Source of the DNA: Marinobacterium marinum
GTDB lineage: Bacteria > Pseudomonadota > Gammaproteobacteria > Pseudomonadales > Balneatricaceae
DNA: 39,464 bases
NCBI RefSeq assembly: GCF_013868415.1
Contig: NZ_JACEMT010000044.1
Coordinates: 1-39,464 of the forward strand
Reading direction: 5' to 3'
Shown here: in pieces, positions 3,147 to 39,433 of the stretch
Numbering within the stretch: position 1 is the first letter of the stretch
How the letters are laid out: every line of letters begins with the position of its first letter
Program-made: the position numbers and the translations under genes
The notes under the pieces: model-generated
Database searches by the model: none
What the model saw: the letters and a program-made list of their open reading frames with translations, nothing else
Told to the model about the DNA's origin: nothing

Positions 3147-3182
3147 GGTCGTTTCCATCAAATTGATTCTGTGAAGTGGGGG

Positions 3183-6023: not shown

Positions 6024-6467
6024 CTGACTTTCATTCTCCTGTCGGCTAAAAAGTCAGATTCTATCTGATTATGAAAATCATTATCAGTATCAATAAGTTT
6101 TTATTAGGTATTTATATTTATTTTTTAGTAATGGGTGAATAGGTGTGAGAAGACGGAGGCTTTGGCAGAGGAAAAGCTTAATTTACTGTCCGGGAATGGT
6201 TGACCACTACAAGTGTTGACTTGGGCCGTTTGAAGTCGGTCTTCGTTGTATGCCCGGCTAGTTCATTCAATAGCTGTACATATCGTAAGGATATACACCA
6301 AAATTCATACGAAATCTTCAATTTTAAGTACTAATCTAACCGATAATCATTCTTGTTTGTGGGTAGTATAGATGGTGTGCCGGGTGGGTGAAGCAAAAGG
6401 TATTGCCGCCCTTTAACACTTACTAAACGCCCCGCTAGCCAGGGCTAGACAACAAGGAGAATGATAC
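6024..6467. promoter_or_regulatory. Divergent control region between the two TonB receptor genes
   Basis: This 444-nt AT-rich stretch has no convincing gene. It holds the strong Fur box for the minus-strand operon (6067-6086). Nearer the plus-strand receptor is a weaker Fur-like site, CGATAATCATTCTTG at 6341-6355 (10 of 14 informative positions of the 7-1-7 model). A good ribosome binding site, AAGGAGAATGATAC, directly precedes the ATG at 6468. I cannot define the promoters with confidence. Confidence 0.65.
6067..6086 (-). promoter_or_regulatory. Fur box of the STN-receptor operon
   Basis: GATTATGAAAATCATTATC (6067-6085) matches 17 of 19 bases of the classical Fur box. The overlapping TGAAAAT-C-ATTATCA (6072-6086) matches 13 of 14 positions of the 7-1-7 model. 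It lies 44-63 nt upstream of the receptor start, where a repressor would block the promoter. Confidence 0.85.
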
Positions 6468-9968: not shown

Positions 9969-10026
9969 CCGAACACCCAAGCCAGCCGGGCAGAGGATAA
10001 GCCCGCCAGCCAGGGAAGACAGGGGC

Positions 10027-10048
10027 GGCCGCACCCCGTAAAGCGGCC
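10027..10048 (+). promoter_or_regulatory. Intercistronic hairpin between receptor and hemophilin genes
   Basis: GGCCGC and GCGGCC form a 6-bp GC-only stem with a 10-nt loop in the 112-nt gap between the receptor and the hemophilin gene. No T tract follows. It may act as a partial terminator or stabiliser that sets different levels of receptor and secreted ligand; this is a guess from position. Confidence 0.35.
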
Positions 10049-10080
10049 ATTTGAACTAACCCAACCAAAGGAATGTGAAC

Positions 10081-10938
10081 ATGAAAAAGTTTTTGCTTGT
10101 TTCCGCGATCGCCCTGGCAGCCTCTCCGGCGTTTGCAGCAACCGACGCGACTAAGGGCGGCTCCTCCAATACTGCCTATGTTCAGGTGGGTACGGGCGAG
10201 ATTCTGGGCGCGGGCGTTGGTATCGCCATGCCGGCAACAAATCCGCCGACTGCTGACGTGCTTGCTAAGGTTGTCAGCTTTGAAGGTGGGCCGATCGACA
10301 AGACCGACAAGGCGGTGAGCTATGCCGCGAATGGTAACGGTTATATCGATATTCAGGGGAATAAGCTGTCCGAAACCTGGAAGCACACCATCGCCGGCGG
10401 TGCCGGGGTCGGGACCGAGATCTACGCCTACCGTCAGATCAAGGAACCCATGCCGAATTTTCCTCACTTCGGCGGTGAGGTGATCGCCAAGGTGCCGGGC
10501 CTGGCCGCCAGCAACGCCGTCTACTTCGGTGAATGGGCACCCTGGGATGGCAGCACCGGCACGGCGCACGACCCTGATCTGGGCATGGACAGCTCACTGC
10601 GCACCGTGTTCTTCGTGGGTGAAAACCCGACCACCAGCATGCCGAACCTGACCAACGTGGCCTACGATGTGGTGGGTATCCAGAAATACAACCCGGATAC
10701 TCAGGCCGGTGTCTACACCGGTACCCTGACCGCCAATTTCAGCGGCACCAGCGGTTCCATCACCGGTACCCTGAACGGCGTCAACTTCAGCGGTACCAGC
10801 ATCAGTGACACTGGCAGCTTCTCTAACGGCAGCACCATCTCCGGCAAGTTCTACGGCAACCAGGCCGAGGCGCTGGCAGGCATGTATGACACCACTGGCG
10901 TGGCCAACGACATGGCCTTCGGCGGTGCTCAGCAGTAA
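10081..10938 (+). CDS. Hemophilin-like secreted heme-binding protein (Slam substrate)
   Basis: A 285-aa exported protein. The signal peptide is MKKFLLVSAIALAASPAFA, cut before ATDATKGG. There is no lipobox cysteine, so it should be a soluble rather than surface-anchored Slam client. The C-terminal part (about 215-270) is rich in short Gly/Ser/Thr beta strands (YTGTLTANFSG, SITGTLNGVNFSG, ISGKFYGNQAEALAGMYD), the small beta-barrel pattern typical of Slam-dependent clients such as TbpB handles and hemophilins. The N-terminal part would be the heme-binding domain; several His residues occur (KHTIAGG, PNFPHFGG, GTAHDPD). An in-frame GTG lies 6 nt upstream; ATG at 10081 fits AAGGAA at 10068-10073 better. 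Flanked by the TonB receptor and Slam genes. Heme binding is inferred from context and fold pattern. Confidence 0.8.
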   Translation: MKKFLLVSAIALAASPAFAATDATKGGSSNTAYVQVGTGEILGAGVGIAMPATNPPTADVLAKVVSFEGGPIDKTDKAVSYAANGNGYIDIQGNKLSETWKHTIAGGAGVGTEIYAYRQIKEPMPNFPHFGGEVIAKVPGLAASNAVYFGEWAPWDGSTGTAHDPDLGMDSSLRTVFFVGENPTTSMPNLTNVAYDVVGIQKYNPDTQAGVYTGTLTANFSGTSGSITGTLNGVNFSGTSISDTGSFSNGSTISGKFYGNQAEALAGMYDTTGVANDMAFGGAQQ

Positions 10939-11010
10939 GGCTTAAACCCCCCAGGGTGTTTGCTTGAGGGGGATGTGTGCTTATGTTTCCTGCCGTTGAG
11001 ATGTATCGAC

Positions 11011-12489
11011 ATGCACCGTTTAATACCCTGCGCACTTGTATTGCTGCTGGCACCGACGGCCGCACTGGCCGACGATGACGACACCCGCTTTCTGCTTAAC
11101 CAGATGGACCGCCAACAGCAAAGCGAAGAACGCGCCTACCCGGCACCGGCCGTGGCCGACAACCCCGATCTGTTCACCGTGAATGGCACCACCTACCAGG
11201 TGGAACAAACCCTTGAGGCGCTGGGGCCGGCCCTGTATGTGGCCATCAACCTGAAACAGTGGCACAAGGTGCGCCAGTTTGTGCAACGCTATCGCCAGTT
11301 GCCCGGTCATGATGCCAACCTGGCCCTGTTGGCCGAGGGGATGCTGGCGCGGGTCGATGGCGACTATGCCGGGGCCATCGCCGCACTGGAAACGGCACTG
11401 GCCGGCAAGCCCGAATTTGTCCGTGCCCGGCTGGAGCTGGCACGCATCTACTTTGAAGACCACCAGCTTAACGCCGCCCGCGACGCCTTCGAACGGGCGC
11501 AAGGCAGCGCCGGGCTGCCGCCGCAGGTGCTCGGCATGATCGATCAATACCTGGCCGCGCTGGATCGGCGCGCCGGCTGGCAGGGCAGCCTGTCGCTGGG
11601 GCTGGGGTACGACACTAACCTGAACCAGGGCAATGGCGATGTATTGGTCAGCCAGGTGTGTTATCTGCCCAACTGGTGCCAAACGGTAACCCGCCGCATG
11701 CCCGAGCCGCTGGAATCGTCCGAATGGGTGTACGACCTCACGGCCGAGCGCCGTTTTAACCTGAGCGGCCATCATAACCTGCTTCTGCGTGGCATTGTGT
11801 ATGGCAGTTACCCCGACAAGGCACTGGAAGGCACCGACAGCACCGACTATTTCGATGAAAACACCAGCGTGCTGTACGCCGGTTACAGCTATAAATCGGC
11901 CCGCAACGAGCTGAACCTGTTGCCGACATTCGAACATTTTTACAGTGACCGCCACACCCGCTATGAGGCGGGCGGGCTGCGGCTGGAATGGAAGCACCAG
12001 TGGTCGCCGCCCCTGCAGCTCAATACCTATCTGCAAACGCGCCGTTACCGTTTTCAGGGCGAAGATGCCGTCTATTTTGAAAACTATGACGAACACCGGC
12101 TGGGCCTGTCAGCCAGCTATCTTCTCGATCCGCTGACGGCGCTGTACGGCGGGCTGGATTATACCCGCAAGGATTTCCCCACCGATGCCGCCAGCAGTGA
12201 TGCCTGGATGCTGAACCTGGGCGTGTACCGTCAGCTGCTGCCGGGTGTCAACCTGAACGCAACCGCGTTGTACCGCGAAACGCGCAACGATGAGGCCAAC
12301 ACCCTGTTGGGCGGTCTGCGTGAGGATAAACAGCAGATCTACATGCTGAATGTGGATCTGCCGCGCTGGGCGATCAAGGGGTTTGTGCCGGTCTTGTCGC
12401 TCAAGCATACGATGAATGAGAGCAGCATTGACTGGGCCTACGGTTATCAACGTGACGAAGTAGCCCTGAAACTGCGCAAAACCTTCTGA
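11011..12489 (+). CDS. Slam-type outer-membrane translocon (surface lipoprotein assembly modifier, TPR plus DUF560 barrel)
   Basis: A 492-aa Slam protein that moves its client across the outer membrane. The signal peptide is MHRLIPCALVLLLAPTAALA. A periplasmic TPR region spans about 70-185 (HDANLALLAEGMLARVDGDY, ARLELARIYFEDHQLNAARD). A 14-strand-type barrel starts around 200 with GWQGSLSLGLGYDTNLNQG, the usual Slam barrel entry, and ends in VALKLRKTF. Length is normal for Slam1/Slam2 (about 480-520). The frame is open further upstream to 10960, but the ATG at 11011 is where the signal peptide begins. The gap to the hemophilin gene is 72 nt and contains a C-run/G-run weak hairpin (10947-10972). 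It presumably exports the adjacent hemophilin. Confidence 0.9.
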   Translation: MHRLIPCALVLLLAPTAALADDDDTRFLLNQMDRQQQSEERAYPAPAVADNPDLFTVNGTTYQVEQTLEALGPALYVAINLKQWHKVRQFVQRYRQLPGHDANLALLAEGMLARVDGDYAGAIAALETALAGKPEFVRARLELARIYFEDHQLNAARDAFERAQGSAGLPPQVLGMIDQYLAALDRRAGWQGSLSLGLGYDTNLNQGNGDVLVSQVCYLPNWCQTVTRRMPEPLESSEWVYDLTAERRFNLSGHHNLLLRGIVYGSYPDKALEGTDSTDYFDENTSVLYAGYSYKSARNELNLLPTFEHFYSDRHTRYEAGGLRLEWKHQWSPPLQLNTYLQTRRYRFQGEDAVYFENYDEHRLGLSASYLLDPLTALYGGLDYTRKDFPTDAASSDAWMLNLGVYRQLLPGVNLNATALYRETRNDEANTLLGGLREDKQQIYMLNVDLPRWAIKGFVPVLSLKHTMNESSIDWAYGYQRDEVALKLRKTF

Positions 12490-12516
12490 ACGTCAGGTTC
12501 AGGCAAGCAACTGCAC

Positions 12517-12531
12517 GGGGCCATCGGCCCC
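12517..12531 (+). terminator. Short GC hairpin after the Slam gene
   Basis: GGGGCC-ATC-GGCCCC forms a tight 6-bp stem 28 nt after the Slam stop. No run of T follows, so it is at best a weak or Rho-assisted terminator, or a pause site before the small HTH gene. Confidence 0.4.
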
Positions 12532-12544
12532 ACACTGTTAAAGG

Positions 12545-12895
12545 ATGAACGATGTGAATATGCCATGCCCGGATGTACAGGTGATCAAGCAAGCAGGTCA
12601 ACCGGCATTTGCGGTGATCCCCTATGACGAGTATCTGGTATTGCTGCGCGCCAATCAGCGCCATTTGCCCGCCCGTGTCGTCGAGATGCAAACGGAGGGC
12701 GGCTTGAGCCGCATTGCCGCCTGGCGCAGCTATCGCGGCATGTCCCAGTCAGAACTGGCCGAGCGGCTTGGGATCACTCAGTCGTCGGTGGCACGGCTGG
12801 AGCGGGTGGACGTTACGCCGCGCCAGCGCACACTGGAGCGTGTGGCCATTGCGCTGGGTTGCACGGTTGAACAACTGCTTCTCAGATCTGAATAG
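12545..12895 (+). CDS. Small XRE-family HTH protein, antitoxin-like
   Basis: A protein of up to 116 aa. The C-terminal part (about 58-110) is a clear Cro/C1-type helix-turn-helix: AAWRSYRGMSQSELAERLGI, then TQSSVARLERVDVTPRQRTL. The N-terminal part (VQVIKQAGQPAFAVIPYDEY) resembles the Phd/RelB-like dimerisation segment of some antitoxins. No toxin gene is next to it, so it may be an orphan antitoxin or a local regulator of the heme cassette. The start is uncertain: AAGG at 12541 touches the ATG at 12545, so GTG at 12554 or ATG at 12560 may be used. It follows Slam by 55 nt and precedes the Fur box of the next operon. Confidence 0.75.
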   Translation: MNDVNMPCPDVQVIKQAGQPAFAVIPYDEYLVLLRANQRHLPARVVEMQTEGGLSRIAAWRSYRGMSQSELAERLGITQSSVARLERVDVTPRQRTLERVAIALGCTVEQLLLRSE

Positions 12896-12968
12896 GCGGT
12901 AAGCAAAGGCATAGTTTTTATTGCTGATTGCATACGGATCAAGGCTTCACATTAACAGATTTTTTTAA

Positions 12969-12983
12969 TGAGAATGGTTATCA
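12969..12983 (+). promoter_or_regulatory. Fur box of the thiocarboxylate metallophore operon
   Basis: TGAGAAT-G-GTTATCA matches the 7-1-7 Fur model at 12 of 14 informative positions and is centred 33 nt upstream of the first operon start. A GGAG ribosome binding site (12997-13000) lies between. The AT-rich stretch just upstream would hold the promoter. The AraC-type regulator at the end of the locus is a candidate activator here, but I see no recognisable operator for it. Confidence 0.75.
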
Positions 12984-13008: not shown

Positions 13009-14184
13009 ATGCCATTACCCCCTATAGTACAGCCTGCCGCCGAACTGACTCGAGAGGAGATCAATCGCTATAGCCGTCATCTGCTGATTCCTGATGTGGG
13101 CATGGAAGGTCAGCGCCGACTCAGAAAGGCCCGTGTGTTGGCAATAGGCGCCGGCGGGCTGGGGTCTCCGGTATTGTTGTACCTGGCTGCAGCCGGGGTG
13201 GGTACCCTGGGGATCATTGACTTCGACCGGGTGGAGGAATCCAACCTGCAGCGGCAGGTGATCCATCAGGTCAGTCAGGTTGGCGAGTTGAAGGCGGAAA
13301 GCGCAAAGCAAGCCATCCAGCGCTTGAACCCCGGCGTACAGGTTGAGACGCATACCTTTCGACTGGAGCCTGACAATGCCGTTGAGTTGTTCGCCCGATA
13401 TGACCTGATCGTGGACGGGACCGACAATTTCGCGACCCGTTACCTGGTCAATGATGCCTGCATTCTGGCAGGCAAGCCTTATGTCTGGGGCTCCATCTTC
13501 CGCTTTGAGGGCCAGGTGTCGGTGTTTTGGGAAGACGCCCCCGATGGTTTGGGACTGAACTATCGTGATCTGTATCCGGAGCCGCCACCGCCCGAGTTTG
13601 CGCCATCCTGCTCTGAAGGTGGGGTGTTGGGCATTCTGTGTGCCTCGATCGGGTCTGTCATGGCGACCGAGGCGATCAAGCTGATTACCGGCATTGGCGA
13701 CCCCTTGCTGGGGCGACTGCTGACTTACGATGCGCTAGAGATGCGCTACCGCGAGTTGCCACTGCGTCGCGACCCTCAGCGGGTCCCGGTGACAGAACTG
13801 ATGGATTACGAATATTTCTGTGGCCTGGGGCAGGCAACGCAGGAAGCGTCAAGCGTACAAGTGCCGCAGTTATCCGTACACACTTTGAACGCGAGACTGG
13901 TACAAGGGCAAAAACCGTTGTTGATCGATGTGCGTGAGCCAACCGAGTGGGACATCGTACGTATTCCTCAGGCGTGCCTAAGACCTCGTTCAGCCCGTTT
14001 GGCAAGAGACCTTCTGGACGAATTTGGCATTGATGCCGAGATGATCATCATGTGTAAGGCAGGCCAGCGTTCACAGGCAGTTGCCAGCGAATTGCAGGCG
14101 CTGGGCGCCAGCAAGGTGCGCAATCTCGCGGGTGGGGTACTGGCCTGGGTCAACGAAATCGACCCCACACAGCCATCCTACTGA
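13009..14184 (+). CDS. MoeZ/PdtF/QbsC-like adenylyltransferase-rhodanese that activates and thiolates a sulfur carrier
   Basis: A 391-aa two-domain enzyme. The ThiF/MoeB E1-like domain (about 15-250) has the nucleotide loop GAGGLGSPVLLYLAAAGVG, acidic DFDRVEESNLQRQ, DGTDNFATRYLVND and the conserved cysteine Cys201 in APSCSEGGVLG. The rhodanese domain (about 285-388) has LLIDVREPTEWD and the persulfide loop CKAGQRS with Cys349. I see no paired CxxC zinc motif, as in the MoeZ subgroup. The expected role is to adenylate the C-terminal glycine of the sulfur carrier and convert it to thiocarboxylate. The start at 13009 follows GGAG by 8 nt. It is the first gene of the operon behind the Fur box, directly followed by the JAMM peptidase and the carrier, the trio found in qbs and pdt loci. 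Confidence 0.9.
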   Translation: MPLPPIVQPAAELTREEINRYSRHLLIPDVGMEGQRRLRKARVLAIGAGGLGSPVLLYLAAAGVGTLGIIDFDRVEESNLQRQVIHQVSQVGELKAESAKQAIQRLNPGVQVETHTFRLEPDNAVELFARYDLIVDGTDNFATRYLVNDACILAGKPYVWGSIFRFEGQVSVFWEDAPDGLGLNYRDLYPEPPPPEFAPSCSEGGVLGILCASIGSVMATEAIKLITGIGDPLLGRLLTYDALEMRYRELPLRRDPQRVPVTELMDYEYFCGLGQATQEASSVQVPQLSVHTLNARLVQGQKPLLIDVREPTEWDIVRIPQACLRPRSARLARDLLDEFGIDAEMIIMCKAGQRSQAVASELQALGASKVRNLAGGVLAWVNEIDPTQPSY

Positions 14185-14200
14185 TGCCGAGGATAGAGCC

Positions 14201-14605
14201 ATGTTGAAAATCTGCAGCGCGGTACTGGATGCCGTCATCGAACAGGCCCGGCAGGATCACCCTATCGAAACCTGTGGTGTCGTGGCGGCTGATGCTGGCA
14301 GTCCGATTGCCAACCGCTTGATTCCTATGCGCAATCAGGCCGCTTCCGAGACTTTTTTCTGTTTCGATCCGCGCCAGCAATACAAGGTGTGGTGCGAGTT
14401 GGAGGAGTGCGACCAGGAGTGCCGGGTGATCTATCACTCCCATACCGCAAGCATTGCCTGGCCCAGTCGTGAGGATATCGAGCATGCCCACTACCCGGAT
14501 GCGCATTACCTGATTGTGTCCACCTGGGAGCAGGCTGACTGTCCGGTGCGCAGCTTTCGCATCGCGAACGGTGCCGTGCTTGAAGAGCAGGTGGTTCGCA
14601 TCTGA
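14201..14605 (+). CDS. JAMM/Mov34 (MPN) metallopeptidase that matures the sulfur carrier
   Basis: A 134-aa zinc peptidase of the QbsD/PdtG/Mec+ group. The full JAMM set is visible: Glu23 in PIETCG, then His79, His81, Ser89 and Asp92 in YHSHTASIAWPSREDIEHA (H-x-H-x7-S-x2-D). Family members trim residues beyond the Gly-Gly of a MoaD-like carrier, or release its product. Here the carrier two genes on has a 19-residue tail after Gly-Gly, the obvious substrate. The frame is open upstream to 14081, but ATG 14201 has GAGG at 14189-14192 and gives the normal family length and N-terminus. The gap from the adenylyltransferase gene is 16 nt. Confidence 0.88.
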   Translation: MLKICSAVLDAVIEQARQDHPIETCGVVAADAGSPIANRLIPMRNQAASETFFCFDPRQQYKVWCELEECDQECRVIYHSHTASIAWPSREDIEHAHYPDAHYLIVSTWEQADCPVRSFRIANGAVLEEQVVRI

Positions 14606-14639
14606 CGCTTTTTTATCTGTTTTTATTTTCATTGTTCAG

Positions 14640-14656
14640 TGCCGGTTATCCCGGCA
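14640..14656 (+). promoter_or_regulatory. Hairpin just before the sulfur-carrier ribosome binding site
   Basis: TGCCGG-TTATC-CCGGCA forms a 6-bp stem ending 4 nt before AAGGAG of the sulfur-carrier gene; a T-rich stretch lies upstream of it. It could protect a processed mRNA end and raise expression of the small carrier relative to the enzymes, which would fit a stoichiometric sulfur donor. This is inferred from position only. Confidence 0.4.
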
Positions 14657-14671
14657 TAGAAGGAGTTTTTC

Positions 14672-15001
14672 ATGTCCATCAAAGTAATGATTCCGTCAGT
14701 TCTGCGTCCATTCACCAACGGTGCCAAGGAAGTCAGTGCCGAAGGCAAAACCATCATGGAAGTTATTGCGAGCCTTGAAATGAATTATAACGGAATCAGT
14801 ACACGACTGTTGTCCGGTAACAGGCTGCACCGTTATATCAATATATTCCTGAACGATGAGGACATTCGGTTTGCTCAGGGGCTGGATACACCGGTGACCG
14901 GTGGTGATCGGTTGACCGTGTTGCCAGCGGTTGCCGGTGGCGCCTTTGTTCCGTCAGCAATGATGCATGTGAGCGGATGGACACAATGTTGGATTCGCTA
15001 A
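14672..15001 (+). CDS. MoaD/ThiS-like sulfur-carrier protein with C-terminal pro-peptide
   Basis: A 109-aa ubiquitin-fold sulfur carrier of the QbsE/PdtH/CysO group. The core (1-90) has the MoaD pattern: MSIKVMIPSVLRPFTNGAKE, LLSGNRLHRYINIFLNDEDI, and GGDRLTVLPAVAGG with the terminal Gly89-Gly90. Known mature carriers end at Gly-Gly, where a thiocarboxylate forms. Here 19 more residues follow (AFVPSAMMHVSGWTQCWIR), much longer than the two-residue Cys-Phe tail of QbsE. The JAMM peptidase encoded upstream should remove it. The tail-coding DNA overlaps the start of the next gene by 25 nt. The start has AAGGAG 6 nt upstream. No alternative frame ends right after Gly-Gly, so I do not think this is a simple sequencing error. 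Confidence 0.88.
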   Translation: MSIKVMIPSVLRPFTNGAKEVSAEGKTIMEVIASLEMNYNGISTRLLSGNRLHRYINIFLNDEDIRFAQGLDTPVTGGDRLTVLPAVAGGAFVPSAMMHVSGWTQCWIR

Positions 15002-16794
15002 CGCTCACTTGGTGCGGTCGTCCCGCCCATGATGGTTGGGCTTCTTTTGTGGCGGCAGTCAATCTGCTGGCACAGTCACTGAATATTCGGGTGGTGCATG
15101 CTGAAGTGCAGCAGGCCGAACCGGACTGTCTGGCGTTTGGAATACAGGCATCAGGCATGAGCGAGGTAAGGGTCACCGCCGCCAGCGGTATCCCGGGTGT
15201 GGTGCCGTCCGAGTCTATCCTGCAGGCTCAGTGCGGCATCATGTCGGTACATGGCCGTTCAGGTGGCGGTGCGCAGGCGCTTGGGGTGCCTTATGTATCC
15301 GCCCTGTCTGCCATATTGGCGCTGCAGGGCGGACTGGCTGCACTGGTGTCTGCCCAACAGGGACGGCCCTATCGCGAAGTCTGGGTGTCAATGCTGGGGG
15401 CGGGGCTGATCAGTATCGGCCAGTATCTGGCGGGCGCTACCGCGGTAGAGGAAGGCGAGTCAATCCTGCCGGGTTCTTCTTCGCCGTTATTGCGGCCCCC
15501 GTTCGTCTCGTCCGACCGGGTAAGGTTTGAGCTGGAAACTCTCTCGCCGGAACCCTGGCGGCAGTTCTGGGAGCTGATCGGCTTGCCCGGCGAGGTGGCC
15601 GGCCATGCATGGAGGGGTTTCCTGATGCGCTACGCTCGTGCCGAATCGCCTCTGCCGGAGGCTTGCCTGCAGGCGTTGGCTCAACTGCCTTATGCCCATA
15701 TATGCTCATTGGCGGAAGCTGCCGGCGTAGCGGTCATTCCATTGAAAAACTGGCGCGAGGCAGGGGGTGGCACCTTGGCGCCAAAGCTGTGGCAGGTGCA
15801 GCAGGGGCCGGTAGCTCCAGCGCTTAGACAGACTGACGAGGATGCCGCTCTGCCATTGGCCGGGATTCGGGTGATGGAGTCCTGCCGCCGGATTCAGGGC
15901 CCATTGGCCGGGCACCTGTTGAGCCTGGCCGGGGCCAAAGTGCTGCGCCTTGAGCCCCCCGGCGGCGATCCGTTGCGGGCGATGCCGCCTTGTGTCAACG
16001 GCTGTTCGGTCCGTTTCGATGCGATCAGTGCCTGCAAGCAGGTCACGGAAGTGGATATACGTACAGCGGAAGGGCGGGCGGCCATCGCTGCGTCGTTGCC
16101 GGAAACCGATGTGTTTCTGCAGAACTGGGCGCCGGGCAAGGACCAAACACTGGAACTGGATTTTGACATGATGAAGTCCCGCCAGCCGGGACTGGTGTAC
16201 GCCTATGCCGGTGGCTGGGGCTCCGAACAGACCGATTTGCCCGGTACTGATTTCGTGGTTCAGGCCTGGTCGGGTGTGGCTTCGGTTATTGCGGAGCGAT
16301 CCGGTGAGAGGGGCGGTTCCCTGTTTACGGTACTGGATGTACTAGGCGGTGCAATGGCCACCCTTGGGGTAACGGCGGGTCTGTTGCGCCGCGCACTGGA
16401 CCTGCGGGGTGTGCGTGTAGAAAGCAGCTTGCTGGGAGGTGCCGAGCTGTTGTTGCATCTGGTGCGGAATTATCCGGTTCAGGCCGAATTCGAGGCTATT
16501 GTGCCGACCGAGCAGGGACTGCTGGCGATTGAGTGCACGACAGCCCGTGAATACGGGGCGCTGTGTGACCGGCTGGATGTTGAGCATTGTTCGAAGAGTG
16601 AATTGCGCGCCCTGCTGCCGGAAAAATTGTCCCGGATGAGCGCGTTGGATTGGGAGTTGCGCATGCGTGCGGCGCGGATACCGGCAGCAGCCGTTATCGA
16701 GCATCTGGAGCAACTCTGTTGCCGAGACACTACGGCACCTTACCTGATACGCCATGACTATGCGGCGGTCCAATCACCATGGAGGTTCATATGA
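14977..16794 (+). CDS. Double-length class III (CaiB/BaiF-type) CoA-transferase-like protein
   Basis: A 605-aa protein. The C-terminal half (about 290-600) is a recognisable CaiB/BaiF domain: LPLAGIRVMESCRRIQGPLA, GAKVLRLEPPGGDPLR, and the catalytic region TDFVVQAWSGV with Asp425. The N-terminal half (about 1-270) looks like a worn copy of the same fold (ESILQAQCGIMSVHG, REVWVSMLGAGLIS) but lacks an aspartate at the matching position. Its job may be to move CoA onto or off a carboxylate before or after sulfur transfer; no CoA acceptor can be named. ATG 14986 is an alternative start, with GGATGG as ribosome binding site. It overlaps the carrier gene by 25 nt and the ligase gene by 4 nt (ATGA), so translation is coupled. 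Confidence 0.82.
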   Translation: MDTMLDSLTLTWCGRPAHDGWASFVAAVNLLAQSLNIRVVHAEVQQAEPDCLAFGIQASGMSEVRVTAASGIPGVVPSESILQAQCGIMSVHGRSGGGAQALGVPYVSALSAILALQGGLAALVSAQQGRPYREVWVSMLGAGLISIGQYLAGATAVEEGESILPGSSSPLLRPPFVSSDRVRFELETLSPEPWRQFWELIGLPGEVAGHAWRGFLMRYARAESPLPEACLQALAQLPYAHICSLAEAAGVAVIPLKNWREAGGGTLAPKLWQVQQGPVAPALRQTDEDAALPLAGIRVMESCRRIQGPLAGHLLSLAGAKVLRLEPPGGDPLRAMPPCVNGCSVRFDAISACKQVTEVDIRTAEGRAAIAASLPETDVFLQNWAPGKDQTLELDFDMMKSRQPGLVYAYAGGWGSEQTDLPGTDFVVQAWSGVASVIAERSGERGGSLFTVLDVLGGAMATLGVTAGLLRRALDLRGVRVESSLLGGAELLLHLVRNYPVQAEFEAIVPTEQGLLAIECTTAREYGALCDRLDVEHCSKSELRALLPEKLSRMSALDWELRMRAARIPAAAVIEHLEQLCCRDTTAPYLIRHDYAAVQSPWRFI

Positions 16795-18440
16795 ATACGG
16801 CAGGCATTATTGATCTGGTCCCTTGGGCGGTGCGGCAGCAATGGAAAGACGAAGGCATTTATCCGAATAAACCGGCTTTTGAGTTGTTTCGGGAGCAAGT
16901 GGCAGCGCATCCTGACCAGGCTGCGGTGATCAGTCCTGATGAACGCATGACCTATCGCGAGCTGTATCAGGCTGCCTTGCGTCTGGCGCGCGGCTTTCGT
17001 GATGCCGGCGTGGTGCCGGGCGATGTGATCGCCTGTCAGCTGCCCAACCATTGGGCCTGTTGCGCCATCGATCTGGCGGCGGCCGCGCTCGGCGCGGTGG
17101 TTGCACCCTTTCCGGCCGGGCGTGATCGGCTGGACATACAGTCGCTGCTTCGACGTTGTAACGCCCGCGTCATTGTGGCCCCGGAGGTCTACAACGAGGT
17201 GGATGTGTGCGCGATAATCGAGTCGCTGCGGCCGTCGCTGCTGTCGCTGCGTCTGCTGGTCGTGCAGGGCGCGCCACGTGCGGGCTGGCAGACGCTGGAC
17301 CGGCTGCTGGCCGCTGAGCCCCTGTCCGAGGCAGAGTTGCCGTCAGTCTGTCCCGATTCTCCTGTGCGCCTGCTGGTGTCGTCCGGTACCGAGTCCGAGC
17401 CCAAGCTGGTGGCCTATTCCCACAATGCGCTGGTTGGTGGTCGAGGGCGTTTCCTGCAGCGTCTTCAGGCTGAGGGCGAAACCTTTGTCGGTTTCTACAT
17501 GGTGCCGTTGGGCTCAGCCTTCGGGTCCACGGCCACTGTCGGTGTACTGTGCTGGCTGGGAGGCACGGTGGTGATTATGCCGAAATTCAGCGTTTCCCGG
17601 GCGGTTCGGATTATCGAACGTGACAAGCCCAATTATCTGCTTGGCGTGCCCACCATGATGCAGCGTATCGCGGCAGAACCCGCCCTGCAGCAGGTCGATC
17701 GAAGCGGCTTGCGTGCCCTGATCTGTGGCGGCGCCGTGATTGATCGAGCCACGGTTCAACGCTGTACGGGCGCTTTCGGTTGCAGCTTCATCAACCTGTA
17801 CGGCTCGGCCGATGGCGTCAACTGCCATACCCTGCCGGATGATGATATCGAGGCGATCCTGACAACTGCCGGCAAGCCCAATCCGAGCGTATGCGAGATC
17901 CGGATTGCCGATGATGAGGGGCAGGCATTGCCACAGGGCGAAATTGGCGAGGTGTTGGCACGTGGCCCCCTGAGCCCGATGCAGTATGTCAACGCCCCTG
18001 ACCTGGATGCTCGCTACCGTACGCCCGAGGGCTGGGTCAAAACAGGTGACTTGGGCATGATTGATGCCAAAGGCTATCTGGTGCTGAAGGGGCGCAAGAA
18101 GGACATCATCATTCGCGGCGGGGTCAATATCAGCCCGGTGCAGGTCGAGGGGCTGGTGGCCGAGCATCCGGACGTGGTGTCGGTCGCCTGTGTTCCGGTC
18201 CCGGATGAGGACATGGGGCAGCGCATCTGTTTGTGCGTCACGTTGAAAGAGGGCAGCACGCGCTTTTCATTACCGACCATCCGGGGCTTTTTACAGCGGG
18301 CCGGGCTGGATGCCGGCAAGCTGCCGGAGTATCTGCACTTTCGCCGCCAATTGCCGATGACTCCGGCAGGGAAGGTCGACAAGCGCACGTTGACGCAGGA
18401 TGTTGCCGCCCTGGCGGTACCCACATTGAAGGCAGGTTGA
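16791..18440 (+). CDS. AMP-forming acyl/aryl-acid ligase of the metallophore operon
   Basis: A 549-aa ANL-superfamily ligase that should activate a carboxylic acid as acyl-adenylate, possibly dipicolinate or a similar aromatic acid (inference). Motifs in order: LLVSSGTESEPKLVAYSHNA (ATP loop), FINLYGSADG, GWVKTGDLGMIDAKGYLVLK, GRKKDIIIRGGVNISPVQVE, and the catalytic lysine region MTPAGKVDKRTL. The SSGTESEPK loop departs from the usual SGTTGxPK and resembles siderophore aryl-acid ligases such as DhbE and EntE. The start is set at 16791, with GGAGG at 16781-16785; a longer frame from 16779 would run through that site. It starts within the previous gene's stop (ATGA). Overall similarity suggests PdtJ/QbsL-type enzymes. 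Confidence 0.87.
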   Translation: MNTAGIIDLVPWAVRQQWKDEGIYPNKPAFELFREQVAAHPDQAAVISPDERMTYRELYQAALRLARGFRDAGVVPGDVIACQLPNHWACCAIDLAAAALGAVVAPFPAGRDRLDIQSLLRRCNARVIVAPEVYNEVDVCAIIESLRPSLLSLRLLVVQGAPRAGWQTLDRLLAAEPLSEAELPSVCPDSPVRLLVSSGTESEPKLVAYSHNALVGGRGRFLQRLQAEGETFVGFYMVPLGSAFGSTATVGVLCWLGGTVVIMPKFSVSRAVRIIERDKPNYLLGVPTMMQRIAAEPALQQVDRSGLRALICGGAVIDRATVQRCTGAFGCSFINLYGSADGVNCHTLPDDDIEAILTTAGKPNPSVCEIRIADDEGQALPQGEIGEVLARGPLSPMQYVNAPDLDARYRTPEGWVKTGDLGMIDAKGYLVLKGRKKDIIIRGGVNISPVQVEGLVAEHPDVVSVACVPVPDEDMGQRICLCVTLKEGSTRFSLPTIRGFLQRAGLDAGKLPEYLHFRRQLPMTPAGKVDKRTLTQDVAALAVPTLKAG

Positions 18441-18449
18441 GGATCAGTC

Positions 18450-19616
18450 ATGACAACATTAACCGGCCACACACTGGCCGAGCGGGTTCGACACTTTGTC
18501 GATACCCGCGTCATCCCGCGTGAGACCGAACTGGCCGCGGAACAGGATGGCGCTTCGCAGCTGAGCGATCAATTGACGCAGGAAGCACGACAGGCGGGGC
18601 TTTCAGGCCTGTTCTTTCCCGACCCCCGGGGTGGGGAAATTTCCACCCTTGGCGATTACCTGCCGGTGGCGTTTGAAGAGGGACGGTCCGAGTTCGCGCC
18701 CGCGATCCTGCGGGCGGACCTGGCCGTGGACGCGCACATGCTGCACCGTTTCGGCAGCCCGCTGATCCAGGAGCGTTTTGCCAAACCTCTGGCGGCCGGT
18801 CTGGCGGTGGCCGGTTACGCCATGTCGGAACCCGACCGCAGCGGTTCGGTGCCGGCAACGCTGGCGTTCGATGCGCGCAAGGCCGCTGATGGCTGGTGTT
18901 TGAACGGACGCAAATGGTTCATCTGCCGCTCAGGGCGGGCGCAGTTCTTCACTGTGGTGGCGCGGACGGCCGAGGATTCCCTGTCCATGCTGCTGGTGCC
19001 CGCCGATACGCCGGGTTTTACCTATGAAGGCGGCTTGAACATTCTGGGGCACTGGCAGGGACAGGGGGCACTCAGCTTCGATCAGGTACGGATTCCGTTC
19101 AGTTACCTGCTTGGCCGGGAGGGACAGGGGCGGCAGGTGATGCAGTCCCGCCTGTTGCTGGGGCGGATGCTGAGATCGGCGCACTGGATAGGTCTGGCCC
19201 GGCGCTGTTCGGAGTTGATGCACACGCGTATACATTCCCCGCGCGGGAGTCTGATTCCGTTGGCGGACAAGCAGCTTGTACGGGCGCGGGTGTACGACGT
19301 CTACCGGGCAATCGCCAGTGCCGAAGGGCTGCTGCAAACCGCTGCGGCCGGGTATGACCGCGGTGAAACGGACAGCATCGCGGTCAATGTGGCCAAGCTG
19401 GCCGCCTCCGATGCCCTGAGCAGGGCGGTGGACAGTGCGATCCAGGTGCATGGCGCCGAGGGGCTGGGCGACGGCCTGCCGCTGGCGCGTATACATGCGC
19501 TTGCAAGGGCTACGCATATTCTCGATGGCGCCGATGAAGCGCTTGTCAGCAGTATCGGTCGAGAGCTGCTGCGCGCAAGTGCAGCGGGCGATGCCCCGGA
19601 GGCGCGTCATGCATAA
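18450..19616 (+). CDS. Acyl-CoA-dehydrogenase-like flavoprotein of the metallophore operon
   Basis: A 388-aa member of the acyl-CoA dehydrogenase fold, normal length, with the FAD-binding middle domain (VAGYAMSEPDRSGSVPATLA, GWCLNGRKWFICRSGRAQFF) and the C-terminal helical domain (AIQVHGAEGLGDGLPLARIH). The catalytic-base region reads ATHILDGADEAL, so Asp359 replaces the usual Glu of YEGT, as in ACAD10/11-type members. In this operon it is unlikely to serve beta-oxidation; it may desaturate or aromatise a ring precursor such as dihydrodipicolinate (inference). It follows the ligase by 9 nt and overlaps the transporter gene by 8 nt. Confidence 0.85.
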   Translation: MTTLTGHTLAERVRHFVDTRVIPRETELAAEQDGASQLSDQLTQEARQAGLSGLFFPDPRGGEISTLGDYLPVAFEEGRSEFAPAILRADLAVDAHMLHRFGSPLIQERFAKPLAAGLAVAGYAMSEPDRSGSVPATLAFDARKAADGWCLNGRKWFICRSGRAQFFTVVARTAEDSLSMLLVPADTPGFTYEGGLNILGHWQGQGALSFDQVRIPFSYLLGREGQGRQVMQSRLLLGRMLRSAHWIGLARRCSELMHTRIHSPRGSLIPLADKQLVRARVYDVYRAIASAEGLLQTAAAGYDRGETDSIAVNVAKLAASDALSRAVDSAIQVHGAEGLGDGLPLARIHALARATHILDGADEALVSSIGRELLRASAAGDAPEARHA

Positions 19617-20799
19617 TCGAGTCAGGGTCTCCGAACCTGTCCTGATGGCGCTGCTGCTGGCCGCCATGGGAATGCCGATGATGGTGTTTTACGCGGTGGG
19701 GGTACTGGGTCCCGAGATTCTGCGGACTCTGCAGCTGCCGGTGGCTGCGCTGGGATGGCTGACCACGGCCACCTTTGGCGTGGCGGCCGCCGCGTCACTG
19801 GTGGCCGGGCCGCTGGTGAGCCGTATTGGCGTGCAGCGCAGCCTGCTGGCCCTGTTTGTGCTGGTGGCGCTGTCTTTCTGTCTGATCAGGCTCACCCCCG
19901 GATTTTATGGTCTGTTAATGGCGTTGCTGGTATGCGGGTTGGCACAGGCACTTGCCAACCCGTCAACCAACCAGGCCATTGCGCACTGGGCCGATCCGGG
20001 GCGCAAGGCCTTTCTGGTTGGCCTGAAACAGTCGGGGGTGCAATTGTCCGCCCTGCTGGCTGGTGCGTTGATGCCGTTGCTGGCGGGTTGGTTGAGTTGG
20101 CAGGATGCCTTTCTGTTCTGGGTGCCGGTGCTCATCGTGTTGGTGCTGCTGGGGGCCAGGATGATTCCGCGTGATCAGAGTAGTCGGTCTGCACGTCCCA
20201 TGAGCGTGATGCGACCGGGCCGGGCATTGATTCTGCTGGCGCTGGTGCAGCTTGGGGTCGGGCTGGCCCTGTCTTCGTTCATGACTTATCTGGGTGTCTT
20301 CGCCGAGGAAATGGGAGTGTCGCCAGAATCGGCAGGGTTAATGGTGATGCTGTTCGGCATCACCGGTGTGCTGGCCAGGACATTGCTGACACCGTTGGCC
20401 CGCAACTGGCCGGATGAGTCGTTGATGCTGGGTGTGTTGATCCTGGGGGCCTGTGTGGCGTTAAGCGTCATGCGGTTGACGACACCGGCGCATCATCTGC
20501 CGCTTTGGTCGGCGGTCACGGGCATCGGGGCTACATTGGTGGCCACCAACGCCATTGCCATGAGCATGCTGTTGCATGATCCCGGTTTCGGCGAGGTTCC
20601 GCGTGCTTCCGGCTGGTTGTCGGCCGGTTTTTTCGCCGGTTTTGCGCTGGGGCCTCCCGGGTTTGGTGCACTGGTGGCGAATTGGGGCTTCAACACTGCC
20701 CTGTGGGGGCTGGTGGCGTGTTTGTTGCTGGCGCTGGTCGCAGTGATGGTCCTCTCGGAGCACAGACGTTGCCAAGTGGCACAACCTCCCATGAATTGA
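19609..20799 (+). CDS. MFS transporter (12 TM), likely metallophore exporter or permease
   Basis: A 396-aa major facilitator protein with about 12 hydrophobic segments, for example VLMALLLAAMGMPMMVFYAV at the start and LWGLVACLLLALVAVMVL at the end. Typical loop features are LVSRIGVQRS after TM2 and WADPGRKAFLVGLKQSGVQ in the TM4-5 region, as in CynX/NimT-like or siderophore MFS proteins. ATG 19609 is preferred because GGAGG lies 6 nt upstream; the longer frame back to 19435 lies inside the previous gene. Context suggests export of the product, or passage of the metal complex through the inner membrane, as proposed for PdtE in the pdt system. Direction cannot be told from sequence. Confidence 0.88.
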   Translation: MHNRVRVSEPVLMALLLAAMGMPMMVFYAVGVLGPEILRTLQLPVAALGWLTTATFGVAAAASLVAGPLVSRIGVQRSLLALFVLVALSFCLIRLTPGFYGLLMALLVCGLAQALANPSTNQAIAHWADPGRKAFLVGLKQSGVQLSALLAGALMPLLAGWLSWQDAFLFWVPVLIVLVLLGARMIPRDQSSRSARPMSVMRPGRALILLALVQLGVGLALSSFMTYLGVFAEEMGVSPESAGLMVMLFGITGVLARTLLTPLARNWPDESLMLGVLILGACVALSVMRLTTPAHHLPLWSAVTGIGATLVATNAIAMSMLLHDPGFGEVPRASGWLSAGFFAGFALGPPGFGALVANWGFNTALWGLVACLLLALVAVMVLSEHRRCQVAQPPMN

Positions 20800-20818
20800 A
20801 GTTGTGTACAGCACAACT
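20800..20818 (+). promoter_or_regulatory. Small hairpin between transporter and hydrolase genes
   Basis: AGTTGTG-TACAG-CACAACT forms a perfect 7-bp stem directly after the MFS stop codon. There is no T tract, and the next gene begins 23 nt on with GGA before the ATG. It may lower read-through into the hydrolase gene or act as a protein-binding palindrome. Confidence 0.35.
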
Positions 20819-20841
20819 GCCTGAAAAAGGAAAAAGACGAA

Positions 20842-21735
20842 ATGATTAAAAGATTAGGTTTGGTGATGTGTTTCATGATTTCGTCTGTACCTGCGGCTGC
20901 AGGGGAGAATTTTACTCCAGTAACGGGAGAGCCCTTCGTTGCAAACTACAGTCCCGGCAACCAGCCAGGAACATACGGTGTCATTGTGTTGGAAGGCTCA
21001 CGGGGTGGGCTGTCAAATCGCTTGGCCAGCAAGGTGGCTGGCCTGGGGTATCCGGTTTTGTCATTGGCTTATTTTCGTGAATCAGGTCTGCCACCGACCC
21101 TGGAGAAATTACCACTGGAATATTTTGATGCGCCGCGCCAATGGCTGAGCCAGCAGCCAGAGACTCGCTCGGATGGTGTAGTACTTTTGGGCTGGTCAAA
21201 AGGAGCTGAGCTGGCATTGCTGTTGGCTTCGAATGAGGCGGAGTACGTTGGGGTTGCGGCAATCGCACCAAGCTCGGTTGTGTGGTCGGCACGACGCTCG
21301 TCACCACAGGACATCGCCGTCAGCAGCTGGAGTCGAGCAGGTAAGGGCGTGAATTTTGTGCCCTTGAACGAAGCTGTCATTCAGCAGGAAGGTCTGTTGA
21401 GCGGTTTTGTTTTGGGTCTGGAGCATACTTCAGCCGTATCACAGGCACGTATACCCGTTGAGCGGATTGCCGGGCCGGTTCTGTTGCTGTCTGGTGAAGA
21501 CGATCAGGTTTGGCCCGCGGCAAGGATGGCAGAGCAAATCTGCGCCCAGATGTCTACCGACACCTGTCAGCATGTGCGCTATCCCGGCGCCGGGCATCTG
21601 TTAGACCCTGATTTCAATATGGGAGGGACGGCTGATGCCAATGCCGCTGCGGAGGGTTTGGCTCGAGATGAATTGGCACGCTTTTTACGGCAATTGAATG
21701 GCCAGCTGCAAGAGGCTAGCCATTATGGCCCATGA
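20842..21735 (+). CDS. Exported alpha/beta-hydrolase, acyl-CoA thioester hydrolase (BAAT C-terminal) type
   Basis: A 297-aa protein with a signal peptide (LGLVMCFMISSVPAAA, cut near residue 20). The mature part follows the BAAT/dienelactone-hydrolase pattern: VIVLEGSRGGLSNRLASKVA, GYPVLSLAYF, LEKLPLEYFDAPRQWL, nucleophile Ser119 in LLGWSKGAEL, acid Asp220/221 in LLLSGEDDQVWP, and His252 in YPGAGHLLDP. The complete triad suggests an active thioesterase or esterase outside the cytoplasm, where CoA esters are not expected. In this operon a plausible role is to hydrolyse the thiocarboxylate product or its metal complex, or finish it after export (inference). Its last 20 nt overlap the convergent regulator gene. 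Confidence 0.82.
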   Translation: MIKRLGLVMCFMISSVPAAAGENFTPVTGEPFVANYSPGNQPGTYGVIVLEGSRGGLSNRLASKVAGLGYPVLSLAYFRESGLPPTLEKLPLEYFDAPRQWLSQQPETRSDGVVLLGWSKGAELALLLASNEAEYVGVAAIAPSSVVWSARRSSPQDIAVSSWSRAGKGVNFVPLNEAVIQQEGLLSGFVLGLEHTSAVSQARIPVERIAGPVLLLSGEDDQVWPAARMAEQICAQMSTDTCQHVRYPGAGHLLDPDFNMGGTADANAAAEGLARDELARFLRQLNGQLQEASHYGP

Positions 21736-22675
21736 CGGATTTGGGTGAACGGCCAAAGTAGCGGGTAAAGGCAACACTGAAATTATTGGGATAACGGTAT
21801 CCAACCATCCAGGCGGCCTGCGCAACCTGGTGGCCGGTTGTCAGCAGAGTATAGGCCTTTTGCATGCGCAGCTCCGTTAGCATCTGACTGGGCGTTGTAT
21901 CGTACAGCTGCTTGAATCCCTGTTTCAGCTTGTGCTGACTCAGCGAAACCTGCTGGCTCAGTGAGGCCAACGTCAGAGGTGTTTCCAGGTGCTCACTCAT
22001 CAACTGTCGCGCACGTTCAATACGCTCCAATTCGTGTACATTCAGGGAAGCCTGACTTTTGAGGTTTTCTGGAGCAATACCGTCAAGTTGCTCACACAAA
22101 ATACTTAATGCATGAATGTGAGTATTCAGTTTGTTGGGAGAGTGATGCATATCGGTCTGAATATGGCGGCTGAGAGCCAATGCATGCGTTCGGGTATTGC
22201 TGGTGCTGGAGTGGTTTGACAGTAAATACAAATGGCCATTTCCCAAGACCTGTTCACAGCGCTCAGCCCCCAAATAGCGTTGCAGCCAGGGTTCATTCAC
22301 GATCAGTCGAAGTTGGGAGACCGGTGTGTTCGCCTGATATACCCGCTCGCCAGGGGTGTTGGAAAAGGTTGTAATGGTGGTATGGCCGGCTTTGAAAGCC
22401 AGGCTGTTTTGATTGGTTTGATGAAAGTCTGATTCGCCAGTCAGGCCTAGCGTGATGACCAGTACACGTTCTTTGTGCGGGCAGGCGGTTTCTTCGATCA
22501 GGTGGCATTTGGGCTGGTAATTGACTCGGACCAGTGACAAGCCGGACTCAAGTTCCAGATGATCGGAATAGCAGTGACCGAGGTCAATGGGCAATTGCAG
22601 GCGTCGCCAACCTTCCCCCATGTCGGAAACGTCTTTGGGAATGTCCAGCCCAAGGCGCAGGGCGTTCTGTTTCAT
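21716..22675 (-). CDS. AraC-family regulator, PchR/PdtC-like
   Basis: A 319-aa transcription regulator. The N-terminal ligand-sensing part (about 1-210) resembles PchR-type sensors. The C-terminal AraC DNA-binding domain (about 220-315) has both HTH units: LTLASLSQQVSLSQHKLKQG and QVAQAAWMVGYRYPNNFSVA, ending FTRYFGRSPKSV. PchR-like members activate siderophore genes when they sense the ferric siderophore; PdtC plays that role for pyridine-dithiocarboxylate. A Fur box (22705-22719) sits 30 nt upstream, so the gene should itself be iron-repressed. It is convergent with the metallophore operon and overlaps its last gene by 20 nt. The start ATG is preceded by AGGAG 6 nt upstream. Confidence 0.9.
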   Translation of the reverse strand: MKQNALRLGLDIPKDVSDMGEGWRRLQLPIDLGHCYSDHLELESGLSLVRVNYQPKCHLIEETACPHKERVLVITLGLTGESDFHQTNQNSLAFKAGHTTITTFSNTPGERVYQANTPVSQLRLIVNEPWLQRYLGAERCEQVLGNGHLYLLSNHSSTSNTRTHALALSRHIQTDMHHSPNKLNTHIHALSILCEQLDGIAPENLKSQASLNVHELERIERARQLMSEHLETPLTLASLSQQVSLSQHKLKQGFKQLYDTTPSQMLTELRMQKAYTLLTTGHQVAQAAWMVGYRYPNNFSVAFTRYFGRSPKSVMGHNG

Positions 22676-22704: not shown

Positions 22705-22719
22705 TGATAATCATTAGCA
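22705..22719 (-). promoter_or_regulatory. Fur box of the AraC-type regulator gene
   Basis: TGATAAT-C-ATTAGCA on the plus strand matches 13 of 14 informative positions of the 7-1-7 Fur model. It lies about 30 nt upstream of the regulator start, within an AT-rich promoter-like stretch. Confidence 0.8.

Positions 22720-38328: not shown

Positions 38329-39433
<1,105 letters not shown>

Follow-up and report, generated by a model that had tools for sequence, protein, structure and literature searches.

Two described thiocarboxylate systems, pdt and qbs, provide the closest parallels for the locus analysed here. The pdt cluster is known from Pseudomonas stutzeri KC and P. putida and is predicted in P. 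kilonensis F113, where its order is given as pdtCKPELMFGHIJON (PMC7415375, PMC3570484). The qbs cluster (thioquinolobactin) includes the same carrier-thiolation trio, namely an E1-like adenylyltransferase with a rhodanese domain, a JAMM peptidase and a ThiS/MoaD-like sulfur carrier, together with a CaiB protein and an acyl-AMP ligase. This type of siderophore operon is in print for Pseudomonas, Ralstonia, Nitrosomonas and Hahella (PMC1779556, row 4a), and the thioacid chemistry of the ligase and CaiB proteins was demonstrated for the homologous PtmA3/PtmU4 pair of the thioplatensimycin cassette (PMC6006322). A third group, the HphA-HsmA-HphR or hemophilin type 11 secretion systems (Acinetobacter, Haemophilus, Xenorhabdus hrp), combines a TonB receptor, a secreted TbpB-barrel protein with a signal of the SPI type and the outer-membrane protein Slam. 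The present work concerns a 39,464-bp stretch of Marinobacterium marinum (bases 1-39464 of contig NZ_JACEMT010000044.1, in a genome of 3.28 Mb), hereafter the window. It probably encodes a thiocarboxylate metallophore locus of the pdt type, for which a Slam/hemophilin-like/TonB module would be the likely uptake arm. The coupling of the thioacid core with this apparently co-regulated module, which the original prediction had not linked to it, is the more novel part.

The biosynthetic side comprises the following features, with domain calls from Pfam and NCBIfam:

13009-14184, plus strand: E1-like adenylyltransferase with rhodanese (PdtF/QbsC-like; ThiF and rhodanese domains, motifs)
14201-14605, plus strand: JAMM peptidase (PdtG/QbsD-like; Prok-JAB domain, motif)
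14672-15001, plus strand: ThiS/MoaD-like sulfur carrier (PdtH/QbsE-like; ThiS domain), with a 19-residue tail after GG
14977-16794, plus strand: two-domain CaiB protein (CoA-transferase III; two PF02515 stretches, motif, alignment)
16779-18440, plus strand: acyl-AMP/CoA ligase (PdtJ/PtmA3-like; AMP-binding domain, tree)
18450-19616, plus strand: acyl-CoA-dehydrogenase-like flavoprotein (ACAD; acyl-CoA dehydrogenase domain)
19609-20799, plus strand: MFS transporter, probable exporter (MFS domain)
20842-21735, plus strand: exported alpha/beta hydrolase (BAAT_C/DLH domain; signal peptide judged by eye)
21716-22675, minus strand: AraC-family regulator (PdtC/PchR-like; domain, similarity to pdt-type loci)
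12969-12983: Fur box of the biosynthetic operon, before the E1 gene (two mismatches to the 15-base consensus TGATAATNATTATCA)
22705-22719: Fur box of the regulator gene (one mismatch)
12909-12934, plus strand: direct repeat of AraC type (GCATA-N16-GCATA), a proposed regulator box with no other exact copy in the window, 100 bp upstream of the E1 gene

All eight genes of the previously proposed operon are thus present on the plus strand (13009-21735), followed by the convergent AraC gene, and the Fur boxes proposed before the operon and before the regulator gene were both found. Intergenic gaps within the operon range from -25 to +66 bp (with the MFS start set at 19606 for the computation; the start is probably 19609, the longest open reading frame beginning at 19435). 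The characteristic motifs are intact in E1 (GAGGLG), in the rhodanese loop (CKAGQRS), in the JAMM peptidase (HSH-x7-SRED), in the carrier (AGG plus tail), in CaiB (GTDFVVQA), in the ligase (SSGTESEPK) and in the hydrolase (GWSKG/SGEDD/GAGH), and we take them to be the functional motifs of these families. The C-terminal Asp of CaiB (GTDF) is invariant in all four aligned sequences, and its two CoA-transferase III domains are as in the PtmA3/PtmU4-type cassette. Carrier tails vary between loci and many carriers terminate at GG itself, so the JAMM step would be needed here and perhaps not everywhere.

A scan of genome contigs with a CaiB alignment returned 307 relatives; the analysis retained 80 of them, 55 being taken as proteobacterial and 25 as actinobacterial. 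E1, JAMM, carrier, CaiB and ligase are all present in 53 of the 55 proteobacterial loci, the two exceptions (L033 and L072) lying on short contigs, and an ACAD (>150 bits) and an MFS protein (>100 bits) are found somewhere in the locus in 45 of the 53 core-complete cases. These five genes are contiguous in that order in the window, with ACAD and MFS after the ligase, a position that is not constant among relatives (e.g. L016, L067). In the ligase tree, the sequences of the window and of Marinobacterium iners fall within a 56-row proteobacterial clade that includes the pdt-type loci (support 93 in the SH-like approximate likelihood ratio test), and the two together branch off outside the remaining 54 rows. 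The ligase of a qbs-type Burkholderia locus (L012) lies outside the pdt-type clade on a long branch, the exact placement of which is unsure with the quick method used. Identity of the window ligase is 61-67% to those of Pseudomonas loci and 39% to that of L012, and the window AraC protein shares 46-53% identity with the AraC proteins of five pdt-type loci. Two Pseudomonas loci (L025 and L029) carry AraC, a TonB receptor (683 aa in the L025 genome), a methyltransferase, an MFS gene and two large genes before the core, an arrangement that fits the published F113 order, from which the single-letter gene assignments are inferred.

The biosynthetic core is therefore not new: it is pdt-type and shared with dozens of proteobacterial loci, some of them in the published pdt order. 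The original prediction of a Fur-linked thiocarboxylate metallophore locus is supported by gene content, Fur boxes and ligase grouping, and the comparison of gene content and order with pdt and qbs that it had proposed gave a match to the pdt type, through the Pseudomonas loci, and none to qbs. The further claim of an operon distinct from pdt is not supported, as the core genes recur in 53 of the 55 proteobacterial loci and the operon type was already in print (PMC1779556, PMC6006322). With pdt the window has in common the E1-JAMM-carrier-CaiB-ligase-ACAD-MFS order, the AraC regulator and the ligase clade. It differs, in a comparison made through pdt-type loci and not the KC sequence itself, by having no PdtK-type receptor, no PigD/PigE-like genes, no methyltransferase and no second MFS gene, and by carrying the TonB/hemophilin-like/Slam module and the exported hydrolase instead. 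In contrast to the PtmA3/PtmU4 cassette, the operon here includes its own carrier-system genes, and Fur boxes and TonB receptors adjoin it. A gene family of about 390 aa (cluster c6, e.g. L018 15769-16887), often situated after the MFS gene, is present in 36 loci and not in the window; it has no Pfam match and shows weak similarity to unsaturated glucuronyl hydrolases.

The second half of the locus lies immediately before the E1 gene (6468-12895):

6468-9968, plus strand: TonB-dependent receptor of 1166 aa, heme/hemophore-receptor-like, candidate receptor of the locus (TIGR01785 below cut-off)
10081-10938, plus strand: secreted hemophilin-like protein, predicted Slam cargo (signal peptide without lipobox, by eye; C-terminal TbpB-type barrel)
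10960-12489, plus strand: Slam, type 11 secretion outer-membrane protein (PF04575 and TPR_Slam)
12545-12895, plus strand: small helix-turn-helix (HTH) regulator (in M. iners the hydrolase gene follows directly)
6306-6355, plus strand: promoter region of the TonB/Slam module, with CATACGAAA followed 35 nt later by CGATAATCATTCTTG
6072-6086: Fur box between divergent receptor genes, nearest to a 946-aa TonB gene (one mismatch)

The linkage of this module to thioacid loci recurs in other genera. The window receptor was searched in its own genome and in 35 other genomes carrying thioacid loci (L026 and L063, of 38 handles, were left out), and a strong relative (>400 bits) is encoded in seven of the 35: M. 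iners, G058, G059, G060, G062, G063 and G072. In five of them (G058, G059, G060, G062 and G063, belonging to Pseudomonas/Stutzerimonas), genes for AraC, receptor, hemophilin-like protein and Slam form an uninterrupted block that is divergent from the biosynthetic side; G072 has its Slam module elsewhere than beside the thioacid locus. The Slam proteins of these six genomes, which represent six of the 16 non-Marinobacterium thioacid genomes searched for Slam, are 50-51% identical to that of the window (515-531 bits). The receptors of the window, of M. iners and of the six Pseudomonas/Stutzerimonas genomes form one clade with moderate support (91/86), and the same eight fall together in the Slam tree with two unlinked modules (100/99). 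Among the eight genomes bearing the genus label Marinobacterium, a full-length CaiB, strong TonB and Slam matches and the hydrolase are found only in M. marinum itself and M. iners. In an order-wide search for Slam, matches at E 1e-40 or better were obtained in 12 of 390 genomes, the best outside M. marinum and M. iners reaching 376 bits. The flanks of 12 Slam places in ten of these genomes and of three paralogue modules gave no match to E1, JAMM, carrier, CaiB, ligase or ACAD at E 1e-6, several of these flanks being limited by the contig (L134 about 1 kb before Slam; L136, L138, L139 and L140 ending soon after or before it). A single weak AraC match was obtained in the flanks of these 15 control modules.

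The exported hydrolase, flagged in the original prediction as unfamiliar, is present, and its membership in the biosynthetic core did not hold. It was found only in M. marinum and M. iners among 38 relatives, with no match at E 1e-4 in 82 locus stretches (the M. iners copy lying mostly just outside its stretch). In M. iners, a TonB receptor, two hemophilin-like genes, Slam, the HTH gene and, as last gene, the hydrolase form one series, the hydrolase match (64% identical) starting 5 bp past the end of the HTH match, and in the window seven biosynthetic genes lie between the HTH and hydrolase genes. By this context the hydrolase appears to belong to the Slam module, and its candidacy as a new biosynthetic step was set aside.

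Promoter elements point to a connection of the two halves. With the 15-base consensus, the window contains seven Fur sites at up to three mismatches against 0.65 expected, a number reached in none of 100 shuffles; three of the seven overlap one another at 6066-6092. In the 3.28-Mb genome, 25 forward sites were counted at up to two mismatches against three with the reversed control pattern, and the sole two sites with one mismatch (6072 and 22705) both lie in the window. In M. iners, 15-base boxes also occur in the promoters of E1 (three mismatches) and AraC (one mismatch). The second element is the direct repeat GCATA-N16-GCATA, of which at least one exact copy is reached in five of 100 window shuffles. 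Its definition came from promoters in the window, M. iners, L116, L119 and L120, so that only L117, L118, L121, the E1 promoters of L024, L025, L027 and L034, and 13 control loci are fresh tests; L116 to L120 are close kin and their boxes are not independent. All five Pseudomonas/Stutzerimonas loci carry one exact box between AraC and the receptor, and a second one in the interval from the AraC match to the biosynthetic side (in L117 to L120 the latter lies inside the longest AraC reading frame, yet before the start of the match to the window AraC). Exact boxes were also found (i) before the receptor of the unlinked Slam module of G072, and (ii) some 104-107 bp ahead of the point where the E1 match begins in L024, L025, L027 and L034; a box with one mismatch precedes the M. 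iners receptor gene. The 13 control loci, which span 201 kb and contain 15 other Slam modules, yielded no exact copy. Across the 55 proteobacterial loci, 12 exact boxes were counted against about two expected, one of them (L053) away from cluster promoters. In both Marinobacterium species, the E1 and receptor promoters contain CATACG followed 35-38 nt on by a Fur-like site at up to four mismatches (0.055 expected in block shuffles), and the block CTAACCGATAATCATTCTTG of the window TonB promoter also precedes the M. iners receptor gene. Because the box is found ahead of the receptor as well as ahead of the biosynthetic side, the biosynthetic genes and the Slam-module promoters appear to form one regulon under the PdtC-like AraC protein, and the Slam-secreted hemophilin-like protein would then be a member of the thioacid metallophore regulon.

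From these direct observations on gene content, motifs, conservation, trees, linkage and promoter boxes, the following working may be proposed, with enzyme steps assigned by analogy with the named homologues. Under iron starvation, Fur would be released from the operon and regulator promoters, and the AraC protein would activate through GCATA-N16-GCATA, by analogy with PdtC and PchR, which sense their own metallophore; PdtC is said, after work by Morales and Lewis in 2006, to respond to pyridine-2,6-dithiocarboxylic acid (PDTC). The JAMM peptidase would trim the carrier tail to a free GG and E1-rhodanese would form the carrier thiocarboxylate. The ligase would convert a pyridine-type acid, dipicolinate being the likeliest, to its acyl-CoA, on which the two-domain CoA-transferase would exchange CoA for the carrier sulfur to give the thioacid. 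ACAD would probably aromatize the ring (dihydrodipicolinate to dipicolinate level), and the MFS protein would export the product, most likely PDTC. Finally, Slam would secrete the hemophilin-like protein, which with the 1166-aa TonB receptor would return the metal, most simply as a metal-thioacid complex. For product, metal, cargo ligand and hydrolase role, this scheme is what we infer from the genes.

PDTC is the best single candidate for the product, a call that we regard as evenly balanced. The operon contains the same seven genes as pdt-type loci, with ACAD as the only skeleton-modifying enzyme remaining, and this enzyme fits a single oxidation of the lysine-pathway dihydropyridine to dipicolinate. 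That the ligase and ACAD select another acid, and the locus makes a different thioacid, is somewhat less probable and has to be taken seriously. The ligase identity of only 61-67% to Pseudomonas loci, the position of the Marinobacterium pair outside the other 54 rows, and the window's lack of the PigD/PigE-like and methyltransferase genes and of the PdtK-type receptor of Pseudomonas loci are consistent with it, as is strain F113, for which the account in PMC7415375 reports PDTC derivatives and not PDTC itself. Against it, no further skeleton-forming enzyme is encoded in the operon, and dipicolinate would be one oxidation away from a lysine-pathway intermediate. The PigD/PigE-like genes were first taken as an argument against PDTC by their absence, which was set aside once the genes of the S. 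kirkiae locus (L016) had been compared: its first large gene resembles prodigiosin PigD below the cut-off (621 versus 950 bits) and the second resembles PigE above it (1411 versus 850 bits). Alkyl-dihydropyrroles were identified in PMC7415375 against spectra of Hildebrand and Budzikiewicz (1986), and such compounds are probably what the PigD/PigE-like genes make, as a side product and not the thioacid, so their absence from the window is no argument against PDTC. In L016 the pair occupies 15658-20582 near the core (clusters c13/c12 in Pseudomonas pdt-type loci) and probably corresponds to pdtL/pdtM.

The alternative for the module is that two neighbouring iron systems, the thioacid operon and an ordinary heme-acquisition module, share an iron island and a regulator; we consider this less likely than not, and still a serious contender. 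To our knowledge, all hemophilins described so far bind heme, which is the first of several points that weigh against an uptake arm for the thioacid. The window has no receptor like the PdtK-type or c10-type ones of other pdt-type loci: a search of the two window receptors with the PdtK-type protein of L126 gave no match at E 1e-5, and the c10-type receptor, present in 17 loci, has no match in the M. marinum genome. M. iners possesses a c10-type receptor, divergent from the module, and a cluster-adjacent receptor 27% identical to the PdtK type, so a receptor other than the module's may serve the thioacid in that species. Its two modules, moreover, lie about 7 kb apart, no box at up to one mismatch precedes its E1 gene, and the half-sites there are closer together. 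As for the promoters, the repeat was noticed before it was counted. In the copy upstream of the module's TonB gene in the window, the second half-site is degenerate, and the Fur-like box CGATAATCATTCTTG that follows has four mismatches to the 15-base consensus. The alternative 19-base Fur consensus GATAATGATAATCATTATC, at up to three mismatches, picks only the cluster at 6067-6091 and neither 12969 nor 22705, and L117, L118 and L119 have no 15-base site at up to three mismatches.

Further evidence for a heme module comes from profile matches: the receptor matches TIGR01785/01786 below the cut-offs, and the cargo profile matches the solved hemophilins 8glo, 7re4 and 6om5 (E 1e-13 to 2e-10). In Acinetobacter, heme uptake relies on HphA, Slam and HphR (PMC8560813), and Slam modules without thioacid genes in the examined flanks occur in ten of 388 genomes of the order besides M. 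marinum and M. iners. On the other side stand the AraC-type box, placed at receptor and biosynthetic side and also at the unlinked module of G072, and the finding that, among the modules compared, its nearest relatives are the pdt-linked ones and that of G072. The hemophilin matches cover only the C-terminal half of the cargo (profile 115-273), a part thought to direct secretion (PMC8406197), and for the N-terminal part no solved hemophilin was matched by sequence. A hemophilin would be expected to have heme-ligating His in its N-terminal clamp, and in HphA two His serve as heme ligands (PMC8560813). The nine aligned cargo proteins have no invariant His; cargo-position proteins outside pdt loci are His-poor as well (three in L128, one in L129), and the lack of conserved His was not used as an argument. 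Likewise, F[RK][AV]P and NP[ND]L gave no match in any of the eight module receptors nor in the unlinked-module receptors L128, L129 and L130, and do not discriminate; the FRAP/NPNL boxes are presumably marks of heme-type TonB receptors. An AlphaFold2 model of the cargo from two sequences (mean predicted local distance difference test score 33.5) was not used.

The five Slam-linked pdt-type loci bear on the missing PdtK-type receptor. In each of them the module receptor stands beside AraC, with no other receptor between AraC and the methyltransferase, and the PdtK-type receptor was for this reason treated as variable and not defining for pdt-type loci. The M. iners receptor related to PdtK (P0010) was dropped as a model for the window's receptor, the best match in the M. 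marinum genome reaching 22 bits. Relative to the hemophilin T11SS, the window module differs by its link to a thioacid locus and by the AraC-type box. From this pattern we tentatively advance a more specific idea, which we hold to be possible and on balance doubtful: a Slam-secreted protein of hemophilin fold may have been recruited as an extracellular carrier of the thiocarboxylate metallophore, catching the metal-thioacid complex and passing it to a dedicated TonB receptor of 1000-1170 aa under the same AraC regulator. A literature search of open-licence PMC articles found no link between Slam and thioacids, and a term search within PMC12282271 and PMC8406197 returned none.

It is improbable that the thioacid is an antibiotic, a toxin or a biosynthetic intermediate, as in the platensimycin and yatakemycin clusters. 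Such CaiB/ligase pairs do occur in actinobacterial loci (PMC6006322), and the 25 actinobacterial loci kept here match CaiB and ligase with none of the three carrier-system genes, in contrast to the window, where Fur boxes on operon and regulator, adjoining TonB receptors and a PdtC-like regulator speak for a metallophore. A thioquinolobactin locus, to which the common E1/JAMM/carrier/CaiB/ligase logic and an E1 61% identical to that of the qbs-type locus might point, is very improbable, and the sequence already refutes it insofar as tryptophan dioxygenase is required, in agreement with the original prediction: no PF03301 match was found in M. marinum or M. iners (the control search matched two of 14 named genomes; genome-wide, this was the kynurenine gene searched), no kynurenine-pathway gene is among the genes of the locus, and the ligase lies outside the qbs-type branch. 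The qbs-type locus itself carries tryptophan dioxygenase, FAD monooxygenase and aminotransferase genes; it lies on a 2.4-Mb replicon of Burkholderia multivorans, with ABC and TonB transporters in the cluster.

Several neighbouring features were also recorded. On the minus strand of the window (1619-6023) are encoded a tandem-rhodanese protein (3-mercaptopyruvate sulfurtransferase-like), a 213-aa lipoprotein-like open reading frame (by eye) and the 946-aa STN/TonB receptor, which is preceded by a strong Fur box; in M. iners the position divergent from the module receptor is occupied by the c10-type receptor. A Zur-box-like palindrome (TGTTATATTATATCA, one mismatch) is situated at 1334-1348, between IS110 and sulfurtransferase genes. 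The interval between the two M. iners modules (L103 1115-6277 and 6580) contains genes for an amidohydrolase, a threonyl-tRNA synthetase (ThrRS)-like protein, CobW, a single-Cys DksA and PIG-L, with a Zur-like box (one mismatch) some 300 bp upstream of the gene for DksA; the amidohydrolase/ThrRS-like/CobW/DksA set resembles what we take to be a zinc-starvation cassette, which hints at a role for zinc. Further downstream in the window lie a B12-binding-type radical SAM protein with a weak match to PhpK and C-methyltransferases of ribosomally synthesized and post-translationally modified peptides (34514-36445, minus strand) and, beside it, a short ABC-F-like ATPase gene (36493-37653, plus strand). 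IS110-family transposase genes are found near both window ends (66-1091 and 38483-39433).

Type 11 (Slam) cargo is known as protein- or heme-binding nutrient catchers. If the carrier idea is true, a cargo that cooperates with a small-molecule metallophore of the cell's own making would bring two fields together, and the return of an unstable, diffusible thioacid-metal complex to its producer would be accounted for. The linkage offers a testable receptor for pdt-type loci with no PdtK-type receptor beside AraC, and the GCATA box could be used for finding further members of the regulon.

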